A stretch of 64,000 bases of DNA from Blautia hansenii DSM 20583 (lineage in GTDB: Bacteria > Bacillota > Clostridia > Lachnospirales > Lachnospiraceae). The first letter of the stretch is position 1. The number at the start of each line of letters is the position of its first letter. Both the position numbers and the translations under genes were made by a program. The notes under the pieces were generated by a model, which searched no databases, was not told the DNA's origin, and saw nothing but the letters and a program-made list of their open reading frames with translations. Location of the stretch: positions 2,914,001-2,978,000 of the forward strand of contig NZ_CP022413.2 of the NCBI RefSeq assembly GCF_002222595.2, written 5' to 3'. Below are positions 45,562-64,000 of this stretch, one piece after another.

Positions 45562-45717
45562 ATGCTTTTTTTATTATTCCTTCTCCTTATTCTTTTTACT
45601 CTTTGTATCCTTTGCCTCCCCATGGCAAAGACAAGCTTTGACAAAGAGCTTTCAGACAAGGAGCAAGAAGCATTTCTTCAAGCTTACAAAGACAAGAACT
45701 CCAAGCCTTCTTCCTGA
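45562..45717 (+). CDS. Small membrane protein, 51 residues
   Basis: An open frame on the plus strand with GGAGG 7 nt before its ATG. Residues 1-20 are a strongly hydrophobic segment (Leu/Ile/Cys-rich, LFTLCILCLP) and 21-51 a charged tail (AKTSFDKELSDKEQEAFLQAYKDK). The 3' end overlaps the stop end of the GH29 remnant on the other strand by 34 nt. I do not recognise a family. The clean ribosome site and the membrane-plus-tail layout argue for a real gene, divergent from the MATE gene. Confidence 0.55.
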   Translation: MLFLLFLLLILFTLCILCLPMAKTSFDKELSDKEQEAFLQAYKDKNSKPSS

Positions 45718-46345
45718 AGAGTAATCTCCACACAGTAATTGGTTTCTTTCCATAAATCTTTTGGCAAATGAATGACAATCGTAGATATTTCCTCACAGTT
45801 TAACGTATTTTGCGGTTCTAAAGCTCTGTCATTCTTTAAAACTTTAGCACTTACAGAATGATTGGCAATGTTTGGAAGCTCAATATATTCTCTTTTCTTC
45901 AATACGTGCACATAGAGCTTATGCTCCTTTCTGGTAAGCTCTGCCCAGTCCAGCTCATAAGGGTAATATGGCATTGCCTTTGTTCCGAAAATCCTTTCGC
46001 CGTTTTCCTTTACGTATTTACCCACTTCATTTAAAACGTCCAGACTTCCCTTTGGCACTGCTCCTGTTCCGTCAGGACCGATATTCAGCAAATAATTTCC
46101 CCCTCTGCTTACTACTTTTAAGAGCAGACGGATAACCTCATCCGGACTTTTAAAGTTTTCGTCTCCTATTTTATACCCCCATGTATCGTTTAAGGTAGCG
46201 GGAAGCTCCCAATCTCCTTCATAGGAAAGACGTGGCAGGAAGTTATCACTGGTTGTCATATATTCTCCTAAATCATTTCCTATTCTTCCGCTTACAATAC
46301 AATCCGGCTGAAGGGATTTTACCGTATCAAACAATTCACGGCTGT
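45684..46345 (-). pseudogene. GH29 alpha-L-fucosidase, 3' part only
   Basis: About 220 codons of the C-terminal half of a GH29 fucosidase: ELFDTVKSLQPDCIVSGRIGN, WELPATLNDTWGY, DEVIRLLLKVVSRGGNYLLNIGPDG, then the beta-sandwich domain. The N-terminal half, with most of the catalytic barrel and the nucleophile region, is missing. Upstream the same frame stays open to a GTG at 46463, but residues before SRELFD (about 46345) are not fucosidase: that DNA reads in another frame as a sugar ABC permease N-terminus. A deletion joined the two genes. Fragment not expected to be active. Confidence 0.8.
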
Positions 46346-46453
46346 AAACACTGTAAAGAAAATCAAATATGGTGTAATAAACATCCATCCACTTCTGTTT
46401 TCCTTCTTTTGTGCTACGGAGGTTTTCACTTTTACTGCTGAATTCTTTTTCAT
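46319..46453 (-). pseudogene. Sugar ABC transporter permease (MalF-like), 5' fragment
   Basis: ATG 46453, 6 nt after AGAGGTGG, opens a 44-codon frame. After a basic leader it reads RSGWMFITPYLIFFTVFTAV, the hallmark first membrane helix of MalF/UgpA-type carbohydrate permeases. It then meets a deletion joint (about 46345), continues for a few codons in GH29 DNA and stops at 46319. The ribosome site and frame are those of the original permease gene. The rest of the transporter (second permease, binding protein) is absent from the window. It follows the YesM/YesN-type genes, the usual neighbours of such transporters. Confidence 0.8.
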
Positions 46454-46541
46454 AAAATTCCACCTCTCACTTCTTTTCTGATATCTTTATTTTATCTTGT
46501 GAAGCTTAGAATTTATATAGGTGGTTTTTTATATCCATTGG

Positions 46542-48402
46542 TTATTTTTGTTTTTCTTTTAAATTTCCGTTCTCGTCTACGTCCTCTTTGGTAATCACAG
46601 GAATTTTTACAACGACCAGCGTTCCCATGCCCTTTTTGCTGTATATGGACACAGCATCCTCAATACCAAAGTAAAGACGAATACGCATCTGGGCGCTGTG
46701 AAGTCCAATTCCCGTACTTCTGGGCGCTTTTTCCTCTGTGTTTTTTCTTCCCTCTTTAATCTGACTGCGTACCTGCTCCAAACGCTCTTTTTCCATTCCA
46801 CAGCCGTTATCTATGACTCTTATCCAAACCCATCCGTCTCTTTTACGGATAGAAAGGCGAACGGTCATCGGTCTTTCCAAGCCTTCTGTTCCGTATAAGA
46901 AAGAATTTTCCACAATGGGCTGAAGAAGAATTTTCAGGGAATGCAACTCGTGAACCTGTGCCATATCTGTCTGCAATTCAAATTCTACACTGTCTCCATA
47001 GCGGTTTTTCTGGATTTTCACATACGCCATGAGATGTTCTATTTCATGCTCCATAGGCACGATAACCTGTCCTCCGCTTATGGAAAGGCGATACATTCTG
47101 CCAAGGCTTGCCGCCATTCTGCCAATATCGGGACGGCCCGCTTCATTGGACTTCCACACAATATTTTCCAATGTATTATACAGGAAATGAGGATTTATCT
47201 GGCTCATCAACACCTCGAGCTCCAGCTCCTTCTTTTTCCTGTCCGCCTTTAATCCTTCAATGATATGAGTATTAATCCTCTTCAACATGGAATTATAATA
47301 AACCATCATATCATAGATTTCATTTCTTCTGAGGTATTCTTTTAATTCCACATAAGCGTCTAAGTTTCCGTTATAAACCTCTTTCATGGAAATATTCAGC
47401 TTGTTAATGGGCTCCATAAAGCTTCTGTAAAGATAAGTAATCAACAAAGCACTGGTGCCCACAGATACTAAAAGAATAATAAAAAATTTCAGATACAAAG
47501 TATCCACAGAAGCCGTCACTTGTGTCTCAGGAACAACCATAATAGTTCTCCAGTCATTGATTTCTGATTTTTTATATCCACCAAATAACTCTTTTTGTTT
47601 CTACCGATTTCAAGGACTTTTGTCGAGCTGTCCTGCACTTTTTCAAATAAACGTTCTGGAATTTTTCCTTCTTTTAGAATTTCTTCGTCACTGCTGGAAA
47701 TAACATTTCCTTCTCCGTCTATAGTATAAATTTCTCCTCTTAATGCTTTTGCCTTATCTTTATATAAATCATAAAAAACCCCTTCATTCAGAGCAAAAAT
47801 CTGTACATATTCATAACGGTTATGCTCACGGGAAAATACACGTCTGGAAGCAAAAACTGCCATTTTCTCATGAATATCCTTTGGCTTGTCACTGAGCAAA
47901 AAGTTTTCCCTTGCCGGATACCATATAAGCTGCATTAAATTTGCCGGATCATTTACCTGCATTTTTTCCAGCTCATGCTTTGTTTCCTCTGTATCCTGAT
48001 TGGGATCTCTGAAATTTAAAAGCTCCCCTCTCCAAGTATACATGGCGCTGAGCTTTTCACGGCGGTTCAGCCTGTCCAATGGCTCTAATATCTGCTCATG
48101 AATACGGACAATCGCTCTTTTTTATAAGAACTGCTCCTTTTGCTGTAAATGGTTTCCGCATAATCCTCGAACTCATCTGTCCCTGCATACACATCGGACA
48201 TGGCATACACTTCATCTACCTTCTCATCAACATTTCGGCTCACTTCTCTTAAATCATGATGGGCAGTGCGAATATACTCCTCTTTTAAAGCAGACCTTGT
48301 CTGCCAGAATAAAAGAGTCACCACGCCCAGCACCGGAATTAAAATCAACAGCATGCCAAAGAGCATTTTCCGCTTTAACGCTCCTGTTTTTTTCTTTTTC
48401 AT
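46542..48402 (-). pseudogene. YesM-type sensor histidine kinase with two frameshifts
   Basis: The original product (about 620 residues) reads across three frames: a membrane segment and start of the sensor domain (48402-48085), the rest of the outside dCache-like sensor domain (to about 47516), then the second membrane helix, HAMP and the His_kinase/HATPase region (47540-46542; SQINPHFLYNTLENIVW with the phospho-His, IVENSFLYG, GIGLHSAQMRIR). The joints fall in A-runs, one A short at each: A6 at 48118-48123 and A5 at 47592-47596; adding one A restores KKRAIVRIHEQILEPLDRLN and KKELFGGYKKSEINDW respectively. The 5' end overlaps the regulator gene by 4 nt. Pseudogene, slippage-dependent gene, or homopolymer base-call errors are all possible. 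Confidence 0.8.
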
Positions 48403-49992
48403 TCCCTTCCTGACCTCGCACCTTCTACAAAGTTTCTGTATTCATTGGGGCTCATGCCACAGCTCTTTTTAAACACTTTAATGTAATTTGATACGTCTGC
48501 CCAGCCAAGAGCTTCCGCAATCTCATAGATTTTCAGGGATGGGTCAGACAAAAGCTCCTTGCTCTTCTCCACTCGCTTTTGTGTTACATATTCACTAAAG
48601 TTACATTCAAATTCACTTTTAAAGATTTTGGAAATATAGGCAGTATTTTTATGCACCTTTCCCGCAATATATTCCAGAGAAATTTTATTGGAGGTAAATT
48701 CCAAATCTACGACTTCCCGAATAGCAGATGCCAGACTGCTGCGCTTCTTATTCTCTCCCCTCATCTCTTTGCAGGCTTTGGAAGACTCTGACAGCACCAG
48801 ATACAGAAAATCTCTTTTTTCCTTCAACGTATCCTTTTTATAAATATCCGAATATCTGCATCCCTGCTCTTTCATAACCTTTTCCATCTGCACACTGCAT
48901 CGCAGAAGCTTTCTGGAAATGTGAAACAGCAATTCCAGACACAGACGGTTAATATAGCCATAATCGGAAATCACCCTGTCGTAAAAAACAGAAAAGGTTC
49001 TGTCCAAGGCTTCCATCAGTTTTTCCTTTTCCTGCTTTAAGATATATTCCATAATCTTTGCATCGTCAAAGGAAATGGTATAATAATCAAAATCTGCTTC
49101 TCGAATTTCATCATAATACATAATCAAATCTTTTTTTCTCTTTAAAAATTTTCTGACTGACACAGCACTTTGCCTGCTCATAGCACTGGGGCAGCATCTG
49201 ATAATCCACACAAAAGCTGCTGATGCCCACGGACAAGCAAATCCCCGTACTTTCTTTTACATATTGCAGTAATTTCTCTGTTTTTTCCCGTAAGGTTTCC
49301 TCTTTTTCATCAGGCGGAAGCATTAAAATTCCTGTCAGCCTTTCCTCGTAGTTCAAAAAGAATTTTCCTGAAATGTCATCTAAATGTTGATATTCCCGCA
49401 AAGCCTTTAACACCTGCACCGTCAGATGATAATTGACATTCCTATCATTTTTCTGACTGTCTTCCAGATAAAAGAACATAACGCTGAAACGACATTCTCC
49501 TTCAAAAAGCTGCTCCATTTCATCTTCGTTGTAGCCGTATCCTTTGATTAAGGCATTACATCTTTTCTGCTCTCTTAACTGTCTGGCTTCTTCGTCAGAA
49601 AGTCGGCGCTCTACATCCTCATCCAGCTTCTTTTTCATTTTACGGAATACTTCCTCAAATTCATCAATACCCGTAGGTTTTAATAAGTATTCACTTACTC
49701 CGTTCTGAATTGCAGTCTGAAGATATTCAAAATCATTGTAACCGCTTAAAATTACAATTCTGATATGGGGATATTCTTTATTCAGCCGCTTCATTAGCTC
49801 AAGCCCGTCCATCTTCGGCATACGGATATCGGAAAGCACCAAGTCCGGACATTCCACAGCGATGGCTTCCAGAGCTTCTTCTCCGTTTGAACAAACTCTG
49901 CTTATCTGAAAGCCCCACTCTTCCCACGGCAGGCTGTTTGCAATACCCTGTGCGATTGCCTGCTCATCTTCTACTATCATTAGTCTGTACAT
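48399..49992 (-). pseudogene. YesN/AraC-type response regulator with one frameshift
   Basis: The original product (about 530 residues) has a receiver domain (MYRLMIVEDEQAIAQ, phospho-Asp in LVLSDIRMPKMDG, LLKPTG), a central domain and a C-terminal AraC helix-turn-helix pair (VHKNTAYISKIFKSEF.. AEALGWADVSNYIKVFKKSCGMSPNEY). The frame breaks in an A7 run at 49131-49137: with A6 the reading continues FKEKKDLIMYYDEI into the AraC half. It is the first gene of the pair with the YesM-type kinase (4-nt overlap) and lies behind the heparinase-type lyase gene. It would normally switch on a sugar ABC transporter. The same caveat on homopolymer errors applies. Confidence 0.8.
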
Positions 49993-50010
49993 ATTTTCAC
50001 CCTCTGTATA

Positions 50011-52014
50011 TTATGCGAAACTAATGGTATCTCCTTTATCTGCACAGATTAACAGCCTTCCTATTCCCAGACACTCCTCCACCTGAAGTAAATCCTGCGG
50101 CCCTGTCAAATCACGGTATCGGAATATCAACTGATATTCGTGATTATCTGTGCGGATATACAAGCCCTGCGCCTGTTTCTCATCCAGCATACAATCCCGT
50201 ACAGGATTATAAACCTGCTGCATACACACCTCTGCCTTCTGCTTCTGTCTGCCTGCCAGCACCGCAAGCATGGCTGTTGTTCCTTCTCCCTTTCTATCTG
50301 CCCAGATACTTTCGTTTTTCTCACACAGATTGTAATGGCGGGAAAGCTTGCTCTCAACCTTTTTAACGGATGTGTCTTTCTGAGGAAATACCAGTTCCAT
50401 TTTTGCTTTCTCTCCATTATATACAATTCTGTTGTCTTCGTAAACAAGCTGTCCCTGATTATTGAAGTGGAAAATTCTGCTATATGTATGTGTTTCTCCT
50501 GTATACGCCATATCTGCAACCACATAAACCCCCGGTTCTAATACGACTATTTTTCTATTCAGAAGCACCTGCGCTCCCCCTTGCAGATATCCTGTATGTG
50601 CACCCTCCAATACCAGATATCCGTTCTTTTCCTTTGGTGCAAATCGAAGCTCAGGCACAGCGTTTTGGCTGCCCCATGCGTCTGTATATTCCATAAAGTC
50701 CTGTCCGTCTACTAAAATCGTGTTGTGTGCATAAGCGCTTTTCAGCCAAATCCTGTTTTCTTCGTGATAAGTATACTGATATCTTCCTGCATCCACCAGT
50801 ACGTCCTCGCCTTCGCTGACCACATCAAGATGCAGCTTGTCATTATGTCCGTGTCCTCCGCCCAGGCAGCCGTTTCGGAAGTGAAGATATTCTCCGTCAC
50901 GCTCCCAACTGCTTCGCACATAATAATTTCCACTTTCCTCCAGCATAAAATTCTTCTGCTTCGGCGTCTGTCCATTGATGTTGTCGTAAATATCTGCTCC
51001 TTTTTGACGTAAATCCCAGATACTCTCATAGTCCGGATATTCTCCTGCACAGCCCTTTAAAGCCTCTGCCTCCTGACAGCCTTCCTTTGCCAGAATAATA
51101 GCAGAAGCAGCCAGCATATCCTCCAGACAAGTTTCGTCACTGTCTCCGGTAAGAGGCTGACAGCCATCCGGTTTTTTCCATGCCACATTTGCCATTGCCA
51201 TACGGCGGGTAACTTCTAAAAGCTTTTCGGGAATTTCCCTTTCCCATACCTGTAAAATATGAACGCTCTCTAAAAAGCAGTGCAGAACTTCATTGTGATA
51301 CATACAGGACTGCTCCCAATGTACGCCGTCTGAAAATACCTGAATTTGCCCTTCCTGCTCCAGACGCTTTAAAGCCGTTTCCACATATTCCTCCTGATTA
51401 AGCGCCAGACCGATAAACAGCAAACCGTGGTTTTCAATAACACCCCAGTTGCTGGAAATCTGAAAGCCCCTTCTGGCATGAAGAAGATATTCTCCATGTT
51501 CCTCTAAGCTTTTTGTAAACATTTCCATAAAAGCGTCATCAATCAGCGGACTGTTTTCAAAATATAAGATGCTCTTTGTCCAGTTTTCCCCACGAATACC
51601 TGCCTCAATTTCTCTCCATGTAACCTTTTTACTCTCCTCTGTCAGAGGTACGCCTGTAATCCAGTCTGTTATCATATCTACAAAGGCTTTGGCATACTTT
51701 TCCTCTCCTGTCATGGCATAAGCCTGTCCCAGACAGATAAAATAACGATGACGGTTCATCTGATAAATAAACTCCGGATCATCTGTGGGCATATACGTCC
51801 AGTTAATGGGATATGTAAACGTCTCCTTTTCGTAGGTACGCTCCATGTCCCAGGGTAAGTCAAAAATAAACTCTAAGCGCACAGCCTCATCTGCAATACG
51901 CATAATCTGGTCGGTGTTTTCCGAGCGATATTCTCTCGCCGCCTTTGCACACCATTCCAACTCGCCCTTTTGATATCTGTTTTTCTGTCTTTCAAAATAT
52001 TCTTTTTTATTCAT
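50011..52014 (-). CDS. Cytoplasmic heparinase II/III-type polysaccharide (oligosaccharide) lyase
   Basis: A 667-residue protein with the Hepar_II_III layout: an N-terminal alpha/alpha-toroid (about 60-340; NWTYMPTDDPEFIYQMNRHRY is the family entry motif, SSNWGVIENHGLL near 198 holds Asn/His candidates) and C-terminal beta-sheet domain with GGGHGHNDKLHLDV (about 395, conserved His) and YAHNTILVDG. No signal peptide, so it acts on imported uronic-acid oligosaccharides by beta-elimination, in the manner of PL12/PL15/PL21 enzymes; the exact family is not certain. It overlaps the GH95 gene by 8 nt and is co-transcribed with it. Confidence 0.88.
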   Translation of the reverse strand: MNKKEYFERQKNRYQKGELEWCAKAAREYRSENTDQIMRIADEAVRLEFIFDLPWDMERTYEKETFTYPINWTYMPTDDPEFIYQMNRHRYFICLGQAYAMTGEEKYAKAFVDMITDWITGVPLTEESKKVTWREIEAGIRGENWTKSILYFENSPLIDDAFMEMFTKSLEEHGEYLLHARRGFQISSNWGVIENHGLLFIGLALNQEEYVETALKRLEQEGQIQVFSDGVHWEQSCMYHNEVLHCFLESVHILQVWEREIPEKLLEVTRRMAMANVAWKKPDGCQPLTGDSDETCLEDMLAASAIILAKEGCQEAEALKGCAGEYPDYESIWDLRQKGADIYDNINGQTPKQKNFMLEESGNYYVRSSWERDGEYLHFRNGCLGGGHGHNDKLHLDVVSEGEDVLVDAGRYQYTYHEENRIWLKSAYAHNTILVDGQDFMEYTDAWGSQNAVPELRFAPKEKNGYLVLEGAHTGYLQGGAQVLLNRKIVVLEPGVYVVADMAYTGETHTYSRIFHFNNQGQLVYEDNRIVYNGEKAKMELVFPQKDTSVKKVESKLSRHYNLCEKNESIWADRKGEGTTAMLAVLAGRQKQKAEVCMQQVYNPVRDCMLDEKQAQGLYIRTDNHEYQLIFRYRDLTGPQDLLQVEECLGIGRLLICADKGDTISFA

Positions 52015-54241
52015 AATTTTCCACTCCTTCTAGCTCTAATCTGCTGTTTTCTAAAAGAGTAACGCTCCTTCGTATCCCACAATAACGCAGCTCTATGGTT
52101 TGAGTTTTCCCCGAAGAAAGAGAAATTTTTGTAAGTTTTCCACATTTCCATGCGAAATCCACCTTCAGCCTTCCTTCCAGACACAGACCTGTCACCATCC
52201 CTGTCTCCATTCCCTCAGGAATAATCCGAAGAAGCTCTACCACATCACCCCTTCGGGATGCCAATGCTTCCAATACTGCCTTTGCCATTCCGAAATTTCC
52301 GTCAATCTGAAACGGGGGATGAATATCCCACAGGTTTTCATCCACACTGTTTGCAAGAAATTGTCTCATCTGCTCATCAAATTTTTTCTTGTCCTTTAAG
52401 CGGGCATAAAAGCACATAATCCACGCTTTACTCCAGCCCGTATGACCGCCTCCGTGCTCCAAACGATATTCCAGAGTTCTTTTCGCCGCCTCGAAAAGCG
52501 CAGGCGTATCCTCTGAAATTTCTCTTCCCGGATGCAGCCCATATAAATGAGAAATATGACGGTGTCCCTTTTCTACTTCCTCGTATTCCTCCTGCCATTC
52601 CAAAATCCTGCCAGACTTCCCAATCTTGGTAGGCGGCAAATGTTCTAATATCTCCTGCGCCATTTTTTCTGTCTCATATTCCGGCGAACCTGTATTATAT
52701 CTTCTGCATCCTTCCAGATAATTCTCCGCAAGCTCACGAATAATCTGATGGTCCATGGCAACGCCCATAGCCACACTGGCTTCCTGACCATCTAAAAGGC
52801 GATAGGTATTTTCCGGTGATACCGTAGGGCCGCTTATCCACATTTTATCAGATTTCCGATAAAGATAGTCATAGAAAAATAAAATACATTCTTTCATAAC
52901 AGGCAGCACACGCTCCCTGATTTCCTTCGGATTTTCCTCAAACTCACTGTGATGATAAAGCTGGTTTGCCATCCATGCGCCACCCATAGGCCAGAGAAAT
53001 GCAGGAAGCCACAACCCTGTAATGTCCGTGTCTCCCCACAAATTTGTATTGTGATGCGCTACAAAACCTCTGCAAGCATACACTTTCTTGGCTGTTTTTC
53101 GTCCATTTGGAAGCATCTTTTCTATCAAGTTGAAGAACGACTCATAGCATACGCCCAGTCCTGCTCTATCTGCCATCCAGTAATTCATCTGGAGGTTAAT
53201 ATTGATGGTATATCCGCTTTCCCACGGAGGAGTAAAGCTGCCGTTCCATATCCCCTGAAGATTTGCAGGCAGCGCACAGCCATAGGAGCTACTGATAAGA
53301 AGATATCTTGCGTAGGAAAACATAAGCCAAATTAAATAGCCCTGAACCTTTGGTTCTTCACAGCGTTTTAAAAGCTCATCCGCCGGAATTTGAGCCAGCT
53401 CCTCTGCCCCTTCTATCTCCAGTCTCATATTATTATAGAGTCTTCCGTATTCCTCAATATGCGCCTTCTTAATCTCCTCAAATCCCACTTTTGCCGCAGC
53501 TTTTAAAAGTCTGCTGCACTTGTCCAAACATTCTTTGCTCTCGTAATCTGTACGCACACAAAAGAAAATTTCCACATAAGAGGCTCTTTCTACAAGAAGA
53601 TATCCACCTTCTACACAGACTCTTCCATCTGTTTTCCCCACTCTGCACCTTACATCATAACACACTCCGTCTCCGCTGTGTCCGTTTAAAGAAATTTCTC
53701 TGTCCTCTACTTCGGCATTTTCTTCAAACGGTCTGCGGTTTAATCCCAAGGAAAAGCTCATGCCCTGTTCTTTGTCTGTTTCCATCCGCAGAGCAGTGAC
53801 CTGATACTTAACAGAAGAAAAAATCTCTCTTACTGTCTTGCAGTTGTCAAAGCAGATTTTCACTCCTGCTTCTCCTTTTTCTAAGTCAATTCCTCTAAAA
53901 TACTCCTTTACTTTTCCAAAAGGCTCAAAATTAAGAACTGCCTCTGCCGCCGGATGATAAGGATTGGTATATCTGGGATTTCCCACAAACCATCTGCTGC
54001 ATAAGGTCTGTGCCTTGCTTGCTTCTCCTTTTTCTAAAAGTTCTCTCACCTTTTCCAGCTTTTCCTTGCCTGCTTCTACGGCTCGCTCTCTTTTTCCTCC
54101 GTACCACAGACTTTCTTCATTTAAAACAATCCGTTCCTGCTGTACACCGCCCAAAAGCACTGCTCCTTGTTGTCCGTTTCCCACAGGAAGCCCCTGTTCC
54201 CAGCTTTTTGCCTCGTGCGTTAAATAAAAACCTTTTCCCAT
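52007..54241 (-). CDS. GH95 alpha-L-fucosidase (or alpha-L-galactosidase)
   Basis: A 744-residue GH95 enzyme, near full length for the family. The N-terminal beta domain (about 1-230; WEQGLPVGNGQQGAVLLGG, LNEESLWYGG) is followed by the catalytic (alpha/alpha)6 barrel. Catalytic-site motifs are intact: HHNTNLWGD (paired Asn), WPMGGAWMANQL, TVSPENTY (general acid Glu) and FQIDGNFGMAKA (Asp). No signal peptide, so it removes alpha-linked fucose (or L-galactose) from imported oligosaccharides by inversion. It is first of the operon with the heparinase-type lyase, and with the decayed GH29 suggests former use of fucosylated host glycans. Confidence 0.93.
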   Translation of the reverse strand: MGKGFYLTHEAKSWEQGLPVGNGQQGAVLLGGVQQERIVLNEESLWYGGKRERAVEAGKEKLEKVRELLEKGEASKAQTLCSRWFVGNPRYTNPYHPAAEAVLNFEPFGKVKEYFRGIDLEKGEAGVKICFDNCKTVREIFSSVKYQVTALRMETDKEQGMSFSLGLNRRPFEENAEVEDREISLNGHSGDGVCYDVRCRVGKTDGRVCVEGGYLLVERASYVEIFFCVRTDYESKECLDKCSRLLKAAAKVGFEEIKKAHIEEYGRLYNNMRLEIEGAEELAQIPADELLKRCEEPKVQGYLIWLMFSYARYLLISSSYGCALPANLQGIWNGSFTPPWESGYTININLQMNYWMADRAGLGVCYESFFNLIEKMLPNGRKTAKKVYACRGFVAHHNTNLWGDTDITGLWLPAFLWPMGGAWMANQLYHHSEFEENPKEIRERVLPVMKECILFFYDYLYRKSDKMWISGPTVSPENTYRLLDGQEASVAMGVAMDHQIIRELAENYLEGCRRYNTGSPEYETEKMAQEILEHLPPTKIGKSGRILEWQEEYEEVEKGHRHISHLYGLHPGREISEDTPALFEAAKRTLEYRLEHGGGHTGWSKAWIMCFYARLKDKKKFDEQMRQFLANSVDENLWDIHPPFQIDGNFGMAKAVLEALASRRGDVVELLRIIPEGMETGMVTGLCLEGRLKVDFAWKCGKLTKISLSSGKTQTIELRYCGIRRSVTLLENSRLELEGVENYE

Positions 54242-57400: not shown

Positions 57401-59826
57401 AAAAACGCATAATTGTCAGGATCATTGGCATTTCTGGAATGAATTTCTTTTTCTCCCGAAATAGCCGGCTTCACACTTTCAACAGGTACATAGGAAGAAG
57501 TTGCTTCTACCTCTGCTTTTATTTCGGGGTTTGCCTTTGCGGTCACTGTCATAGATGCTGTTCCCGGCTTGTTGAACTTAAATTCGCTGGATGAGTTTAA
57601 GTTATAAATCAATTTTCCATCACTTGGCGCATAAGTAAAACGAGAACTATGTACCGGAATAAATTCTTCGCTTCCCTGATATTTTGCCTGTACCTGAATA
57701 TTTTTCCATTCGGAACCTTCTACTTTTATTTTACCGTTAGTTACATCCTCTCCATCAATAAAAAGCTTAATTTGTTCAATTATCTGTGATTTTGCAATTA
57801 CTTTTACCCAAGCAACTGTTTCTGTGGATGCATCTGCTTTTCTTTCTGTTGCTGATACAATGGCAGAACCCTCTGCATCTACTCGAAGTTCACCTCGATC
57901 TGCCCCTATTGATAAGGCCCTGTCCGGCTTTACATCTGTTATGTTCCATGACACTGTACTCGTAGTCGGTAATTCTTTTAAGTGAAATGTTCCTGCCAGA
58001 TTAAAAGCACCTACCTCATCCGGTGATACATATAAAGTCTGATTTTCAATTGTCTCTGTTACACCATCTGCAAAAGCAAACTCTATTTCATATTTATTTT
58101 CCGGAAAATTTGGTTTGTTGGGATTATATTCCTGATTCTCCCCAAAATAAGGATATCCTGTACTATTTTGTCCCCATGCGATGCCAAACTCACCCTTATT
58201 CTTGTTTAAAAGCTCTACAAATTCCTTCGTCTTCATATCATCTTCTGACTTTGCAGAAGAATTTATTAATGCTTCTGCCGGAAATTGTACTGGATTTTTC
58301 CCACTGTCAGACCAATAGGAATTGATTAAGTTACCTCCTTTATATTCTTTAAATAAAACAGCTATTTTCCCTTCGCTAATAGAATAACTATTAATCAATC
58401 TGCCGCCTGTAAGACGTTTTGCAAATCCACAGGCTCCATCGCCTTTCACGTCTGTATAACAGTTAATAATTGCACCTTTTAAATCATATCCTGCCGGCCC
58501 GCTTTCTGCCCATGAAGCTAAAGTACCGGTAAAATGTGTATTTTGTAAAATCCCTTGTTCTCCAACACTCTGAAACAACCATGTAGTATCTTCAAAAGTA
58601 ACCGTATGTCCATTTCCATCAAAGGTAGCGTTAAATTCAAAAAACGCCTTATATTTTTTGTCTAATGTAATATCATTATCAAGAACATAGTAAACGTCTG
58701 TCTTTTCAGCGTCTATTTTCTCCAAATCTGCCTGCTTTTTAATATGAACAACCTGGTTTTCATCTTTTGGCGGAGCAACCGGTTCTGTTACTTTTTTCTT
58801 TTCTAATTGTTCTTTTGCCGCATTTAAGGCTTTCAAAGCTTCCTCAATTTCTGTCTGCTTTACATCTGATTTCTGCAAAACTTGTTCTGCTACATCTAAT
58901 GCTTCAGAAAATGCTTTCCAACTTTTTTCAGTATATCTGTCCTGCTCCAGTCGCTTTCCTTCATTTACAGCATTTTGGAGAGCTGTTTTATCTATCTGTT
59001 CAGGTTCTGGATTTCCTCCACTCTGTCTTAAAACAGGTAACCCTTGATTACTTCCATCTGATGGAGAAGTCCATGTAAATCCTGTGTCCGGAATATCTTT
59101 ATTTAATAATTGCGCTGCAGACTTTAATTCCTCTAATGTTTTTTTGAAACTATTTCCGTCTTCAGGCTTTTTTCCCCAAGATACAGGTCCCGAAGCTGAC
59201 GAAGCTTTATCTGTCGCATAATAACTGTTAGATAAAATACTTTCTTCCGTTTCTCGAATTCCAACAAGTCCGCCTGCCATCATAGCGTCAATACTTCCAC
59301 CAAAGTACGTATTTTTAACTGCTCCTGAGCGGAAAGTTCCTACAAGACCTCCTACTTCTCCTGCCCACCCAGTTAATTTTATTTTAGCCGTAGAATAGCA
59401 GTTCTGAATGGTTCCGCTTAAAGTAATCGCCATACTTCCAAAAGTTTTGTCACTTACAATAACATTTTCACTGGTTACTCCAAGGTTCTGAATCGTTCCT
59501 GTCACTTCATTTGCCAGAGGCTTATCTGCAAGAGTAATGGTGTGACCATTTCCATCTAAAGTTCCTGCAATGCGTTCAAAAGTTTGACCTTCTGTAAACA
59601 CAATATCCTCTGTCAACGTATAAGTTGTTCCCGCTTCAATAACTGTGGGAATTTCCGTTTCAGAAATTTCAGCTTCCTGCCCCGTCCCACTTAAAATTTC
59701 TCCTGCTTCTACAACCGGAGTCTCCATGTCGCCTGTGGCATGTACCGATACAGGCATTCCGGTAATAAGCAATGCCATTACCAGAAGCAGACTGAGAACA
59801 CGGTTTGCATTTCTTCTTTTTTTCAT
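54436..59826 (-). CDS. Riboswitch-controlled, wall-sorted protein with intrinsic-factor-like (toroid plus DUF4430) domains
   Basis: 1796 residues. In order: signal peptide 1-32; beta-helix/GLUG-like region (55-200); FIVAR-type helices (279-345); second beta-helix region (362-565); several Ig-like domains (575-1004); an alpha/alpha-toroid of the prenyltransferase/intrinsic-factor type (1009-1300; ITALLKFQNEENGGFGL, TAMCLQALAPY, ESTAQVLLTLTSLGID); a helical linker; a DUF4430 domain (1380-1505; SMMSVIERACKENGF, GSGWVGTLND, LKDKDVITVEYT); a cadherin-like sandwich; a PEPxPE linker; a conserved C-terminal domain (1620-1740) shared with the PL8 protein; and sorting signal VKTGDE, membrane helix, RRKK. 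Toroid plus DUF4430 is the plan of human intrinsic factor and transcobalamin. The cobalamin riboswitch upstream makes B12 binding the leading idea; binding itself is inferred. Start ATG follows AAAGGAG by 7 nt. Confidence 0.9.
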   Translation of the reverse strand: MKKRRNANRVLSLLLVMALLITGMPVSVHATGDMETPVVEAGEILSGTGQEAEISETEIPTVIEAGTTYTLTEDIVFTEGQTFERIAGTLDGNGHTITLADKPLANEVTGTIQNLGVTSENVIVSDKTFGSMAITLSGTIQNCYSTAKIKLTGWAGEVGGLVGTFRSGAVKNTYFGGSIDAMMAGGLVGIRETEESILSNSYYATDKASSASGPVSWGKKPEDGNSFKKTLEELKSAAQLLNKDIPDTGFTWTSPSDGSNQGLPVLRQSGGNPEPEQIDKTALQNAVNEGKRLEQDRYTEKSWKAFSEALDVAEQVLQKSDVKQTEIEEALKALNAAKEQLEKKKVTEPVAPPKDENQVVHIKKQADLEKIDAEKTDVYYVLDNDITLDKKYKAFFEFNATFDGNGHTVTFEDTTWLFQSVGEQGILQNTHFTGTLASWAESGPAGYDLKGAIINCYTDVKGDGACGFAKRLTGGRLINSYSISEGKIAVLFKEYKGGNLINSYWSDSGKNPVQFPAEALINSSAKSEDDMKTKEFVELLNKNKGEFGIAWGQNSTGYPYFGENQEYNPNKPNFPENKYEIEFAFADGVTETIENQTLYVSPDEVGAFNLAGTFHLKELPTTSTVSWNITDVKPDRALSIGADRGELRVDAEGSAIVSATERKADASTETVAWVKVIAKSQIIEQIKLFIDGEDVTNGKIKVEGSEWKNIQVQAKYQGSEEFIPVHSSRFTYAPSDGKLIYNLNSSSEFKFNKPGTASMTVTAKANPEIKAEVEATSSYVPVESVKPAISGEKEIHSRNANDPDNYAFLPDYSGVIVSPENASYAGNWTVTSSNPSVADYVDSMVKGYVPYKAGTVTYTAKIEQTNPETKKTSVVSGTSEVTYKYKNPLTKITIDESNLQMENFTEQLLNLTFEGELSKDGWSVTDPQLEWSYDKAGIVKIVRKEQGYWKKGNPEWDNAPDKGSFITSDKYYVQSLKEGTVTVTGTPIDKTNKVEPIKFTVTVSGGETPQVDIDALVNKGLQGAKEHFASKYPEENYQYNNNDWIVYARLRAGETISQEKLDAYYQSVADTVKKWSKKQKPTDMERVALSLLIMNKDITDVDGVNLVEMIYNHPSLDMGANELAWALLVTDAKGMEIPTDAKWNRESIITALLKFQNEENGGFGLVDNQTVSVDMTAMCLQALAPYRNINVKVHQAVEAGLEYLKNSMSDAYDFGTSESTAQVLLTLTSLGIDSLNSDFGTPYSNMITCLMDNYYCETEKGNGFCHDKSNKKLNEMSSVQVFQAFTAYTQVKAGEKTYWDLTEENQKTEVEEVIQLIENLPAMKDLTVEDAEVVLSIQALYESLTEDEQQLVHNAEKLQKAIERIEELKTLGEEVGKVTLTIMDGLKKEEKMLSLLEENEIKGMMLQTQATIYQTDSMMSVIERACKENGFSISIRNGEYIEEIDGLGEFDRGPGSGWVGTLNDEFTKTGFADFTVENGKLKDKDVITVEYTENLGKDVTENAELSTLGITDGKLSPEYARDTYEYTLSVGEKVKEITLNPKSYNRYAETVIKSADKVYESGQAIPVEDGTKIEIVSKKTVRGEDIKTYLLTIEQKKTSQPEPQPEPNPEPNPNPDEQKEITLVNKKYGVSLKGKGLEQDMELLVTPLDKDSEAVKAMRKEIPSAKSVFRLYDVVIRQNGKNLELPKEAVLSIPVGEKYNGQQLTVLHYIDGKVEKLNGKSADDMVSVSVKSLGGFGVVVDTPSNSQGNNQSGNQSNGSNGGVKTGDEAQLMLWMCIGVISLGTITALYRRKKNIK

Positions 59827-59942
59827 TTTCTTTCTCCTTTACATATTTTTTCTTACAGAGCATTTTTTATGAGACAGTCGCATAAAAGAGGATTTCAAAA
59901 TATTTATACATTTTTAGTTTTCCCTTAATGTAACAAACTCAC

Positions 59943-59979
59943 AAAAAAAGGTCTCTTTACACACCGGTAAAGAAACCTT
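59943..59979 (-). terminator. Riboswitch-controlled intrinsic terminator
   Basis: AAGGTTTCTTTAC and GTAAAGAGACCTT arms (one mismatch) around CGGTGT, then TTTTTTT on the minus strand. It lies between the cobalamin aptamer and the 1796-residue gene (start 59826) and is the natural off-switch of the leader. Confidence 0.92.
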
Positions 59980-60054
59980 ATCTATCTTCACTATGAAATT
60001 TTATCCTGCACATCTTTTTCTACACAAATAAAACTCCCTCAACCCGGAAATCTA

Positions 60055-60187
60055 TTTCTCTGATGGCAGATTTTCTGACTTAGCCGAAAAGCATTACAGT
60101 AGAGGTGACTGTATCGGATTTGCACCGATTTCCCTTTTAACCTTGGAGCAAGCTCCAACGACCATCATGGATATGCAGTTTATACTC
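60055..60187 (-). promoter_or_regulatory. Cobalamin (vitamin B12) riboswitch
   Basis: The minus strand shows the full aptamer core. P3-like hairpin TTGGAGCTTGCTCCAA; the invariant AAAAGGGAA then TCGGTGCAAATCCGA (the GGTG-x-AA-TCC core); the P5 hairpin ACAGT-CACCTCT-ACTGT; then the B12-box region AAGTCAGAAAATCTGCC. TGATGG (60161-60166) closes with CCATCA (60061-60066). CCTC of L5 could pair with GAGG at about 60038 downstream as the L5-L13 kissing contact. A terminator follows (59943-59979), so B12 should shut off the downstream gene. Confidence 0.92.
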
Positions 60188-60191
60188 CTTT

Positions 60192-60220
60192 ATAGTACAC
60201 AATTCAAAAAAGAATATCAA
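60192..60220 (-). promoter_or_regulatory. Sigma-A promoter of the riboswitch leader
   Basis: TTGATA (60215-60220) and TACTAT (60192-60197) with 17-bp spacing on the minus strand. The -35 overlaps the stop codon of the PL8 gene. No terminator separates the PL8 gene from the riboswitch, so read-through from PL8 would also pass through the switch. Confidence 0.85.
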
Positions 60221-63200
60221 GCCTTTTTCTTCCTTTTTAATACAACAAACAGCGTTCCTCCGACTACAAACATCACAGACAGCATTACAAGCGGTGTTTC
60301 ATCTCCTGTTTTAACCTTATCCACACCTGAAGAAACTGCCTTATCCAATACCGTACCAAAGCTGTTTAAAGACTCTACTTCTACGGATACAAATCCGTCT
60401 TTTACCTTTCCTTTTAATTTTTTTACATTTTCATTGTCACAGGAAAGTACCACAACTTCTTTGCCGTTATATTTTTCCGATACAGGAAGCTGAAGCTCTG
60501 CCTTATGAGGAAGGGCAATTTCTTTTCCGTCTTTTAAAAGCTGAATTTCAATAGGATTGTCAAGCTGCTGTTTCTTGGAAATTTCCTTTTCCATAAGCTT
60601 CACATCTGCATGTTTTTTATCCAGCTTCTCCACAGATAACTGCATATCTGATGTCAGACCTTCTCCCGTTAATTTGACACCATGCTCTTTATTTACCAGC
60701 ATATCAGTTTCCTGAATTTCCGGTGTACTTGGTTCTTCCGGATTTTCCGGCTTCTGAGGTGTCTCCGGTTCTTCCGGCTGCGGTGTTACAGGCGGCACAA
60801 GCTGAAGCTCTGCCATGGAAGCTGCTCCGTTTGTTCCTGCCATAGCAAAAGTCAAAACTGCTCCGTTTTCTGTTTTTTCACAAGTAACGTTTTCATCCAA
60901 CTGAATACAGTCTGCTATTTCTTCTTCAAGTGTAAGCTGAACATTTCCTTTATTCTTCATTGTGGGGTCGGAAACAGAAACTTTCACTGTTCCCTGTTCT
61001 GTTTCCTGAAGCATAACAGACGCAGCCTTATCACTTGTTATTCCGTCTATACTTCCTCCCTGCTCCTGCCAGAAGTTTATGCCTGTGATTTTTAATGTCT
61101 CATGGCGCACTGCCTGAACCTCACTGCTGTTCTCCAGTATGGTTACCTTAGGCGCTTGTGCGTAATTTTCTGTTTCTTCTGCACTTGTTTCGGGAAGCAA
61201 TACATAACTGTAAGATGCGTTTTCTGGGTTCTGTCCGTGGTCTACCCACATTTCCAGATAATTTTCTGTGCTTTCTCCCTCAAAAGTTCCTACGTCTTTC
61301 CAACTGCCTGTGGTCTGACCTCGACGAACCTGAATTTCTGTATTTTCTTCAGGGAAATAATATCCTGTTCCCACAGACTGATTGCCTTCTAAATGTGCCC
61401 AATTTACCTGCTCAAAGCTTGTGCCTGATATGTCTGCTGTACGTTCCACCAACTCTTTTACATTCGCTTCTTTCACAGGTATTTCTGTTTTTTCTCCATT
61501 GACAAGAAGCTGATTGCTTCCGTCTTTTCTTAACTTCTTATTCTCAATGGTAGTTTCCACCGGAAGTTCCATGTTTTTATTTGTAATTCCTGCTCCAAGG
61601 CAGACAATTTCGTCATCAAACATAAACCATGACTTCTTGCCTTTTAAATCCGGCGCATAAGAAACCGGTGCGTCTCCTGCAATTCCCTGCGTTTCTCCTG
61701 AAAATGACATACCGCTGACGCCATAATTTCCTATGGAAGTTCCTCCTACCCAGCTCTCCTTAGAGCAGAAGTCTCCGCCCTGTGCAAAACCTGAGCCATC
61801 CGGTTTCCCTGTCCCAATATTTACAGGAACTACCGTTGTTCCCGGCAGTCTTAACGGATTTACTGTATTCCAATAATTCTCCGTATACTGCTTGTCCTCA
61901 TCATAAATATAAGTCATCCCATTATTCTGATGCCATCCAAAACGATTTTCATCATTCATAATTTCCGTGTTCTGAATACGTTCCGAATACATAGACAATG
62001 CAAAAAGATAGTCTTCTGTTCTGTGAACTGCACGGTCCATAAGGGGGTAAGATTTATGTATCGGTGCTACATTGCTTTGGATAGAAGTGTCTTCCAAAAT
62101 TTCTTTGGCTTTCTTTTTAATTGCCATATTTTCCGCACCAACAAAACTGTCAATAAATCCTTCATCTTCTTCCAGCCAAGCTTTCAGAGCAGAAAGCGTT
62201 GTCTCTTTTGCCTCTTGGCTAAAGGAGTCTACAATTTGCAGAATAATCATCATTGCCTCACGTCCTGCTGCCTGATTGCTGCTTGCCGGTCTGGATACAG
62301 AACGCCCTTTCAGACAATCCAGCATCATTCCCTGATACATGCCGTTTCCAAAGCCTTCCACAATATAGCTTTCCAGATTGTCCTGAACCTGTTCCGGATA
62401 TTTCCAAGGTGTTCCAGCAAGGAGAGACGGAATTTTAGCGCCGCCCTTCATAAACTCAATCCCATAAGCGCCTAAATACGGCACTTTTATATGGTCGAGA
62501 TAAGAACCGTCCGGATAAAAACCGCTGTTGTATCCATTCGCTGCAATTTGAGCGCTGTCTTCTACATTTTGAATAACAAAGGTCTGGGAAGATGCCAGCA
62601 TCCCCAAATACACCAGCTCATTATCTTCTCTCAATGCTCCCAGTCCCACTGCCGTTGTGGAACAGTCAATAATATTCGCTCCCTGCGCCTCACGATATCC
62701 CTGCCCATGGGTGCTTGCCGTATTGATAACGCCTTCATGGAACGGATCAGGCTGGAAAAAGTAAAGTGTTTCTGTGTACGCCATAACCTGTTCTTCTGTC
62801 AGTCCGTCATAAATCAATATTAAAGCAGGAATTAAATCCTTGGGAATACCAATTTCCCATGTCCACCAGTTATCCGTCTGGCTTTTTGCCGTATAACAAG
62901 AGCCGCACAGGAAATCTAAAATATTGGTAATATCCTTTAGCATATCCTGATTTTGATAGAGAGCTCCGCCTTCTGCTGCGTAAGCTTTACACATAGAAAG
63001 CACCTTTTTAAAAGAAACACGAAATTCCACTGCATCGTCTTCATAAGGAATATTCTTATTGCCTTTTGCTCCCTCATCCTCTGCCCAAGGAATACCGCCA
63101 CATTCTTCCTGTCCCTTATAAACATAAGCGTTCCAAAGCGCTTCTGCCTCCTGATTGATTTCTTCTAAGACTTCCGCTCCGCCTTCTTCTGATACTAAAT

Positions 63201-63777
63201 CTTTGCCAATTAAAGACTCTTTCCATGCCTGACGAATTTTTCCGTAATCTTCTGCCGTTGCAGAGGGCAGTTTTGAAGGAGACTGATATAAAATTTCTAC
63301 CTTCCACTGTGCTGTTTTTCCTTGGTCATCCTGTGCCACCACTACGACATTGCCTTTATTCTCTCCTGTAATCACTGCGTTTCCGTTTTCATCCGCTTCA
63401 ACCTTCAATAAATGTTCCGCACTTGCATCTCCTGCCTTACGTGTTCCGTCTGTTTCCCCCTCCTTTAACTCTCTCTTAATTTTAGAATATCCCGCATTTC
63501 GTAAGAAAGTCCCGTCTTTCTTTAAAAATTTTGCACTCCATGTAACATTCTCGGAGAAGCTTTCCGGTTTGTCCAACTGCAAGCTTTCACCTCTGACAAT
63601 AGAAATCTCCTGATTTTCTGTTGGCACGGCTGTTTCCAAAACCTCACTACCCTGTTCTTTACTCACTGCAACAGTATTTACAGGCTCTGCCAAGACTCCC
63701 GTCACATTTCCCACACTCATAGCTGCAATTAACATTGCGCTTATGTACTTTTGATTTTTTCTTTTACCTGTCTTCAT
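60217..63777 (-). CDS. Surface polysaccharide lyase family 8 (hyaluronate/chondroitin-type lyase)
   Basis: 1186 residues. Signal peptide 1-34; an Ig/carbohydrate-binding-like N-terminal region (about 40-150); the alpha/alpha-toroid of PL8 (about 160-520) with DNWWTWEIGIP, catalytic Asn in QGANIID (about 371) and the His/Tyr pair in DGSYLDHIKVPYLGAYG (about 423-437); the PL8 beta-sandwich domains (about 540-1000); then a conserved domain (about 1025-1140) shared with the B12-capture-like protein, and the sorting signal VKTGDE, hydrophobic helix, KRKKKA. It cuts uronic-acid glycosaminoglycans (hyaluronan, chondroitin; xanthan-type less likely) by beta-elimination at the cell surface. Start ATG 63777, 4 nt after AGGAGG; the frame reaches 63828. 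The upstream 220 nt is AT-rich with no signal I can name. Confidence 0.93.
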   Translation of the reverse strand: MKTGKRKNQKYISAMLIAAMSVGNVTGVLAEPVNTVAVSKEQGSEVLETAVPTENQEISIVRGESLQLDKPESFSENVTWSAKFLKKDGTFLRNAGYSKIKRELKEGETDGTRKAGDASAEHLLKVEADENGNAVITGENKGNVVVVAQDDQGKTAQWKVEILYQSPSKLPSATAEDYGKIRQAWKESLIGKDLVSEEGGAEVLEEINQEAEALWNAYVYKGQEECGGIPWAEDEGAKGNKNIPYEDDAVEFRVSFKKVLSMCKAYAAEGGALYQNQDMLKDITNILDFLCGSCYTAKSQTDNWWTWEIGIPKDLIPALILIYDGLTEEQVMAYTETLYFFQPDPFHEGVINTASTHGQGYREAQGANIIDCSTTAVGLGALREDNELVYLGMLASSQTFVIQNVEDSAQIAANGYNSGFYPDGSYLDHIKVPYLGAYGIEFMKGGAKIPSLLAGTPWKYPEQVQDNLESYIVEGFGNGMYQGMMLDCLKGRSVSRPASSNQAAGREAMMIILQIVDSFSQEAKETTLSALKAWLEEDEGFIDSFVGAENMAIKKKAKEILEDTSIQSNVAPIHKSYPLMDRAVHRTEDYLFALSMYSERIQNTEIMNDENRFGWHQNNGMTYIYDEDKQYTENYWNTVNPLRLPGTTVVPVNIGTGKPDGSGFAQGGDFCSKESWVGGTSIGNYGVSGMSFSGETQGIAGDAPVSYAPDLKGKKSWFMFDDEIVCLGAGITNKNMELPVETTIENKKLRKDGSNQLLVNGEKTEIPVKEANVKELVERTADISGTSFEQVNWAHLEGNQSVGTGYYFPEENTEIQVRRGQTTGSWKDVGTFEGESTENYLEMWVDHGQNPENASYSYVLLPETSAEETENYAQAPKVTILENSSEVQAVRHETLKITGINFWQEQGGSIDGITSDKAASVMLQETEQGTVKVSVSDPTMKNKGNVQLTLEEEIADCIQLDENVTCEKTENGAVLTFAMAGTNGAASMAELQLVPPVTPQPEEPETPQKPENPEEPSTPEIQETDMLVNKEHGVKLTGEGLTSDMQLSVEKLDKKHADVKLMEKEISKKQQLDNPIEIQLLKDGKEIALPHKAELQLPVSEKYNGKEVVVLSCDNENVKKLKGKVKDGFVSVEVESLNSFGTVLDKAVSSGVDKVKTGDETPLVMLSVMFVVGGTLFVVLKRKKKA

Positions 63778-64000
63778 ACTTCCTCCTTCTTTCAAAAGTT
63801 CTCCATTCTTATTCCTATAAGTTACCATTCCTCCTTTGCTTTATAAATACAATATTTGAATTTTTCTGTTACTATTTATAGATATTCTATTTTTTAGTAT
63901 TATTTTTTCAATATTCTGTTATTTTCTTTTACTTTTTCATCCGATATAAATACCAAAATAATATTCATTTGCCATTTGAATTTCCAAATAATGTTTGTTA

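Follow-up and report, generated by a model that had tools for sequence, protein, structure and literature searches.

A truncated cobalamin riboswitch upstream of a gene for a putative surface corrinoid trap in Blautia hansenii

The genes placed under cobalamin riboswitches fall into four categories in the accessible text of a 2013 survey of riboswitch regulons, namely B12 biosynthesis, transporters of B12 or its precursors, cobalt transporters and isozymes (PMC3766115). Why such a riboswitch should precede a gene for a large surface protein is the question raised by a 64-kb stretch of the Blautia hansenii DSM 20583 genome (contig NZ_CP022413.2), referred to below as the window. An initial annotation of this DNA had placed a cobalamin riboswitch and a terminator directly before a single 5.4-kb gene, and had proposed that its product is a wall-displayed B12 scavenger repressed by B12. 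We analyzed the leader, the encoded protein and their relatives in the same genome (scanned as one contig of 3.07 Mb, labelled C1) and in other genomes. The gene probably encodes a stand-alone surface corrinoid trap, presumably anchored by a C-terminal KTGD tail and repressed through a transcription-attenuating cobalamin riboswitch when intracellular cobalamin is plentiful.

Rfam scanning returned a significant full-length match to the cobalamin riboswitch model RF00174 at 60181-60048 (-) (model positions 1-189, 66.4 bits, E 3.3e-14), about 35 bits above the gathering score of 31.5 bits; the only other gathering-level Rfam match across the window is a tRNA. The 134-nt aptamer keeps an intact core, including a hairpin at 60129-60113 (-) with the 7-nt loop UGCAAAU, presumably P5/L5, and a 3′ core element at 60081-60065 (-) that we take to be the B12 box. 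Model positions 90-151 (62 positions) are replaced by 5 nt, so that the annotation's "all core elements" stands for the core, while the peripheral part, presumably P8-P12, is gone. In lacking a large peripheral arm or extension, the aptamer is like the class II (IIa and IIb) cobalamin riboswitches as these are generally described. Five RF00174 matches occur in this genome, two of them short (134 nt in the window, 137 nt at C1:959324) and three of 181-196 nt, the latter scoring 95.9-104.4 bits. The leader 3′ of the window aptamer looks like that of a longer aptamer in the same genome (L003) when the sequences are compared by eye. Behind the aptamer, terminator scanning and folding located the T-tailed intrinsic terminator that had been claimed, at 59979-59948 (-), with 13 pairs and -15.1 kcal/mol.

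The next gene, an open frame of 5.4 kb at 59826-54436 (-), encodes a 1796-aa, predicted secreted protein with a hydrophobic N terminus, and the claim that riboswitch and terminator directly precede a surface-protein gene was borne out. A strong hairpin with a T-rich 3′ side, probably a terminator, follows the gene at 54432-54362 (-) (-28.1 kcal/mol, z -7.56, with none of 200 shuffles as good), which supports the description as a single gene, probably its own unit; riboswitch control of the whole downstream glycan locus was rejected because of this hairpin. The reading of the product as wall-sorted has to be qualified. The protein ends in KTGD, a hydrophobic segment and RRKK (aa 1763-1796; 54540-54439 (-)), a tail that would fit anchoring, but no LPxTG motif occurs in its 1796 residues and no sortase-anchor model of Pfam or NCBIfam matches it. 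The genome holds five sortase-family matches.

Three domains were recognized along the protein: a FIVAR domain (aa 279-341, 58992-58804 (-); PF07554, E 1.6e-9), an alpha/alpha toroid (about aa 1013-1292, 56790-55951 (-)) defined by an AlphaFold2 (AF2) model and structure searches, and a transcobalamin-like C-terminal domain of the DUF4430/SLBB type (about aa 1374-1503, 55707-55318 (-); PF14478, E 9.1e-8, 32.9 bits against a cut-off of 23.8). For the toroid, a paralogue's domain matches PF00432 above cut-off. The AF2 model of the two-domain module (aa 1008-1504, 497 aa; pLDDT 86.4) was compared with the PDB using Foldseek, and the 14 best matches are all transcobalamin or intrinsic factor, with alignments of 512-540 columns that span both domains (best E 2.4e-10, probability 1.00). 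The prediction for the module is thus the two-domain fold of transcobalamin and intrinsic factor, in agreement with the intrinsic-factor-like domains noted initially. Like human transcobalamin, intrinsic factor and haptocorrin, it has the two predicted domains in the same order; identity to this family is 12-14% in the Foldseek alignments, and the model shows an extra helical linker and a different domain placement. Unlike the human carriers, the module is part of a large surface protein. A direct sequence match of the module to a solved transcobalamin was searched for and none was found.

No CbiO/CbiQ-like transporter genes lie beside the trap gene, whose neighbors encode a PL8 family lyase and a GH95 protein. 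Such genes are found elsewhere in the same genome, at C1:950400-963100, where a 186-nt aptamer is followed by genes for an 879-aa toroid protein, a DUF4430 lipoprotein-like protein, an energy-coupling factor (ECF) component EcfT that is weakly CbiQ-like, a fused EcfAA′ and an S component. The toroid of the 879-aa protein is related to that of the window and has weak Pfam matches below cut-off. The S component matches chain A of 6fnp (E 1.4e-15), which is the B12 transporter ECF-CbrT according to the accessible text of its description (PMC5997447); there, the Lactobacillus delbrueckii genes form the cluster nrdJ-cbrS-cbrT-pduO, with no mention of a surface trap. After the S component, the sister locus continues with a BspA-type leucine-rich-repeat gene (L008:14228-15076 (+)), the second short aptamer and a gene for a 1177-aa toroid-DUF4430 protein with choline-binding repeats; the latter protein is related to that of the window, 229 of 757 alignment columns being identical.

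Further cobalamin-related genes are present in this genome: CbiM, CbiQ and CbiK behind another riboswitch, CbiD, CobT and cobyric acid synthase, and a CbiC-like protein that stays below the cut-offs of its models. PF02310, a B12-binding domain, is matched twice, so that cobalamin users are probably present. In the region C1:2542025-2544326 (L007:8026-10327 (-)), a 196-nt cobalamin riboswitch precedes genes for an ABC ATPase and an ABC-2 type permease, with no recognized btu/cbi gene. The fourth DUF4430 match of the genome, at C1:2103375-2103569 (-) (L010), falls in a short open frame of 134 aa and has no linked riboswitch.

To define how far the association recurs, matches to PF14478 and RF00174 were paired within 8 kb in a sample of 60 genomes of the family. 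Half of the DUF4430 matches (22 of 44, one of the 44 lying below the curated cut-off) have an upstream riboswitch of the same strand no more than 8 kb away, for which the rough expectation is 0.08. The orientation controls gave one pair with the riboswitch downstream on the same strand and two on the opposite strand. The link occurs in 19 of the 29 genomes with a PF14478 match and takes in 21 of 82 riboswitches. The window's own genome contributes three of the 22 linked matches and four of the 44, and without it the count is 19 of 40. Short aptamers, defined as below 150 nt by a limit chosen after the lengths had been seen, make up 6 of 21 DUF4430-linked riboswitches versus 1 of 61 unlinked ones (Fisher p 0.0009), two of the six coming from the window's genome; since the stricter search filters drop weak matches, the number of short aptamers may be too low among linked and unlinked riboswitches alike.

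Searching genome contigs for the module yielded 79 loci. Where genomes were fragmented, contig coordinates did not assign riboswitches to these loci unequivocally, and 29 of the loci were scanned with Rfam instead; by coordinate mapping, L015, whose record is one chromosome, was negative for a linked riboswitch. Among the 29 scanned loci, 21 carry RF00174 upstream on the same strand, two on the other strand, and six have none. For 17 of these 29 loci, the open frame directly behind the riboswitch is that of the gene itself, at a distance of 45-286 nt in 16 cases, the open frame of L034 running through the aptamer. The 21 linked loci include Blautia, Pseudoflavonifractor, Lysinibacillus and Paenibacillus, and the nearest named locus, in Blautia sp. 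Marseille-P3201T, is 98% identical over the module. Paenisporosarcina (L050) and Paenibacillus lupini (L058) likewise have, behind a riboswitch, genes for a toroid protein, a DUF4430 protein, a CbiQ-like protein and a 6fnp-matching S component; the scan for the ATPase gene covered L058 alone. The run of Pseudoflavonifractor (L034) showed its toroid, DUF4430 and CbiQ-like members, but no S component could be recognized. Two cobalamin riboswitches lie upstream of the toroid gene in three loci (L018:5123-5810, where they are in tandem, L019:1906-7983 and L022:1878-7969).

A possible route from ligand binding to gene control is offered by a candidate antiterminator. Its 5′ strand (60047-60021 (-)) lies directly 3′ of the aptamer and its 3′ strand (59987-59963 (-)) overlaps the 5′ arm of the terminator; the duplex has a predicted energy of -18.9 kcal/mol against a shuffle mean of -9.6, with none of 200 shuffles as good, and the paralogous leader L005 has a duplex of -20.7 kcal/mol that was likewise reached by none of 200. 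As a general feature of these leaders the pairing was not upheld: of 25 leaders entered, 18 were scorable (six had no script-recognized terminator and one was too short), and four of these (the window, L005, L058 and L024) were equalled by at most 3 of 200 shuffles. When scored by hand, 13 of 500 shuffles were as good for L030 and 95 of 500 for L003. The 5′ strand also contains AUUUGUG, complementary to L5. An L5-L13 kissing interaction is a feature of cobalamin riboswitches; this 7-nt complement is a candidate for it that is not significant, being reached in 13 of 100 shuffles. Among 23 leaders, two others had values of 13 of 100 or lower, L034 with 9 and L018a with 1, the script having probably taken the wrong hairpin in the latter.

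Computation gives the aptamer and terminator, an alternative pairing that may form, the folds of the domains and the association across genomes; the direction of regulation, the anchoring, the binding of B12 and its hand-over are what we infer. At low cobalamin, 60047-60021 would pair with the terminator 5′ arm during transcription and polymerase would enter the gene, whereas bound ligand would hinder this pairing, so that the terminator forms and the gene is turned off. After export, the 1796-aa product would stay attached to the wall through its KTGD tail, the toroid and DUF4430 (SLBB) domains may close on a corrinoid, and the corrinoid could then be handed to products of the other riboswitch-led run, namely the lipoprotein-like DUF4430 protein and the ECF transporter whose S component is CbrT-like. 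A B12-repressed, wall-displayed scavenger, as originally suggested, is the best-supported reading because of the predicted fold of the module, the riboswitch with its terminator, and the relatives found under RF00174 beside CbrT-like ECF genes in this genome and in the two Bacilli loci.

Two observations complicate this scheme. The antiterminator pairing is absent from the predicted minimum-energy fold of the window leader, and forcing it to form takes 8.3 kcal/mol while the terminator 3′ arm is still to be made and 19.6 kcal/mol in the full leader; the cost is 1.6 kcal/mol when only the post-aptamer part is folded up to the same point, the terminator 3′ arm not yet being made. The pairing is therefore a candidate that would need co-transcriptional folding to win, and its absence from the minimum-energy fold slightly lowered our confidence in a riboswitch-repressed trap, which we continue to regard as probable, and slightly raised the small likelihood given to a decayed riboswitch. 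The corrin-synthesis genes in the trap-bearing genome are a further complication, such that the trap may spare synthesis, take up cobinamide or serve competition.

The surroundings of the gene are those of glycan degradation. The PL8 family lyase gene (hyaluronate/chondroitin lyase-like; 60217-63828 (-)) lies directly upstream of the aptamer, and its product shares with the trap a C-terminal stalk and the KTGD tail. In L013, an open frame of 1203 aa, the same length as the window PL8 protein and likened to it by length alone, lies upstream of the orthologous riboswitch. Downstream of the trap gene, 45684-54241 (-) encodes GH95, a heparinase II/III-like protein, a response regulator, an AraC-type regulator and a histidine kinase, as well as a 259-aa open frame that matches only positions 205-345 of a GH29 fucosidase profile and is perhaps a fragment. 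No terminator was found by scanning the 35 nt between the PL8 gene and the aptamer, so that read-through from PL8 is possible. The sigma-A promoter of the initial annotation could not be established: TTGATA-17-TACTAT at 60220-60192 (-), overlapping the PL8 stop codon, matches 9 of 12 consensus positions, and the 701-base region holds two such sites where shuffled sequence would give 1.9. This is chance level, for which reason the site was dropped as evidence. Before the trap gene, a ribosome-binding-site-like AAAGGAGAAAG is located at 59840-59830 (-).

Given these neighbors (PL8, GH95 and the heparinase-like protein), the aptamer might be real while the surface protein binds a glycan or another ligand, B12 serving as the cue for a foraging switch within a glycan-degrading locus. 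The stalk shared with the PL8 protein would fit such a role, as would the FIVAR domain in the N-terminal part, a weak match of aa 270-357 to the model of the lacto-N-biosidase LnbX in its C-terminal part (45.9 bits against a cut-off of 2500), and the toroid, a fold that also matches glycan enzymes (unsaturated glucuronyl hydrolase, epimerase) in structure searches. We consider this unlikely, however, as both transcobalamin domains are predicted in the same order, a paralogue under its own riboswitch stands beside ECF-CbrT-like genes, and the riboswitch association recurs in many genomes. Less probable again is a decayed riboswitch, in which the shortened aptamer would have lost ligand binding, leaving the gene either constitutive or terminated. 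The loss of 62 of 189 model positions, a score well below those of the 181-196-nt aptamers of the same genome and a predicted minimum-energy leader containing the terminator are in line with decay, but the core is conserved and clears the gathering score by the margin given above, a second short aptamer precedes the paralogue, and short aptamers recur before DUF4430 genes, in part within this genome. Moreover, classes IIa and IIb, with their variant architecture, are functional according to the accessible text on them (PMC11477304).

An alternative that is likewise unlikely accepts corrinoid binding and changes its purpose: rather than supplying the cell's own enzymes, the trap would deny or share corrinoids, or would collect precursors, cobinamide for example, which the organism's own synthesis genes then complete. 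The corrin-synthesis genes and CobT speak for this, as does the encoding of the trap apart from the transporter; nothing speaks directly against it, although the riboswitch fits ordinary uptake equally and the PF02310 matches make cobalamin users probable. Extending the preferred reading of a riboswitch-repressed corrinoid trap, we tentatively suggest, as a possibility that we hold to be rather doubtful, that Bacillota have built a B12 capture chain under riboswitches from intrinsic-factor domains (wall trap, DUF4430 lipoprotein, ECF-CbrT), and that the shortened aptamers of the traps prefer a different ligand than the longer switches of the same genome, so that display and transport would be tuned to different corrinoids.

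The scavenger idea itself is not new, and within the set of genomes covered here it is common for such genes to have a riboswitch in front of them, so that the arrangement is not exceptional either. According to the accessible text of Burroughs et al. (2007), Gram-positive surface proteins combining a toroid with the transcobalamin C-terminal (SLBB) domain were predicted to be B12 scavengers, with FIVAR fusions, wall anchors in some, and operons with CbiO/CbiQ-like genes as a general though not universal arrangement (PMC1796856). The window trap has their toroid and DUF4430/SLBB pair and their FIVAR domain. It differs from that set in standing alone under its own truncated aptamer, whereas its relatives at C1:950400-963100 have CbiO/CbiQ-like neighbors, and in occurring with synthesis genes, the hosts of the 2007 set usually lacking key B12-synthesis enzymes. 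The word "riboswitch" has no occurrence in the accessible text of that paper, and no report of cobalamin riboswitches controlling DUF4430/toroid surface proteins was found in the open-licence literature, searched mostly at title and abstract level. Riboswitch-controlled surface B12 binders of gut bacteria are likewise represented by BtuG and BtuJ of Bacteroides, which, as far as the accessible texts go, have other folds (a beta-propeller and a beta-jelly roll) and belong to the Gram-negative outer membrane, BtuG partnering BtuB (PMC6143338, PMC13398666, PMC6977713). For Gram-positives, the accessible part of a 2020 review mentions BtuFCD homologues unaccompanied by BtuB and a single ECF transporter (PMC6977713). 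Two points are added here: the link to a riboswitch recurs across genomes, and the trap of the window stands alone behind a truncated aptamer, with the transporter locus at another site of its genome.

The riboswitch link provides functional evidence that is independent of protein similarity, and such leaders could be used as markers to locate further traps. A riboswitch-led surface protein of this kind also makes testable the 2007 proposal that the B12 carriers of animals were acquired from Gram-positive bacteria. For the capture of B12 outside the membrane of Gram-positive gut bacteria, a riboswitch-led protein with a predicted intrinsic-factor fold is a direct candidate, one that may act in competition with other microbes and with the host.

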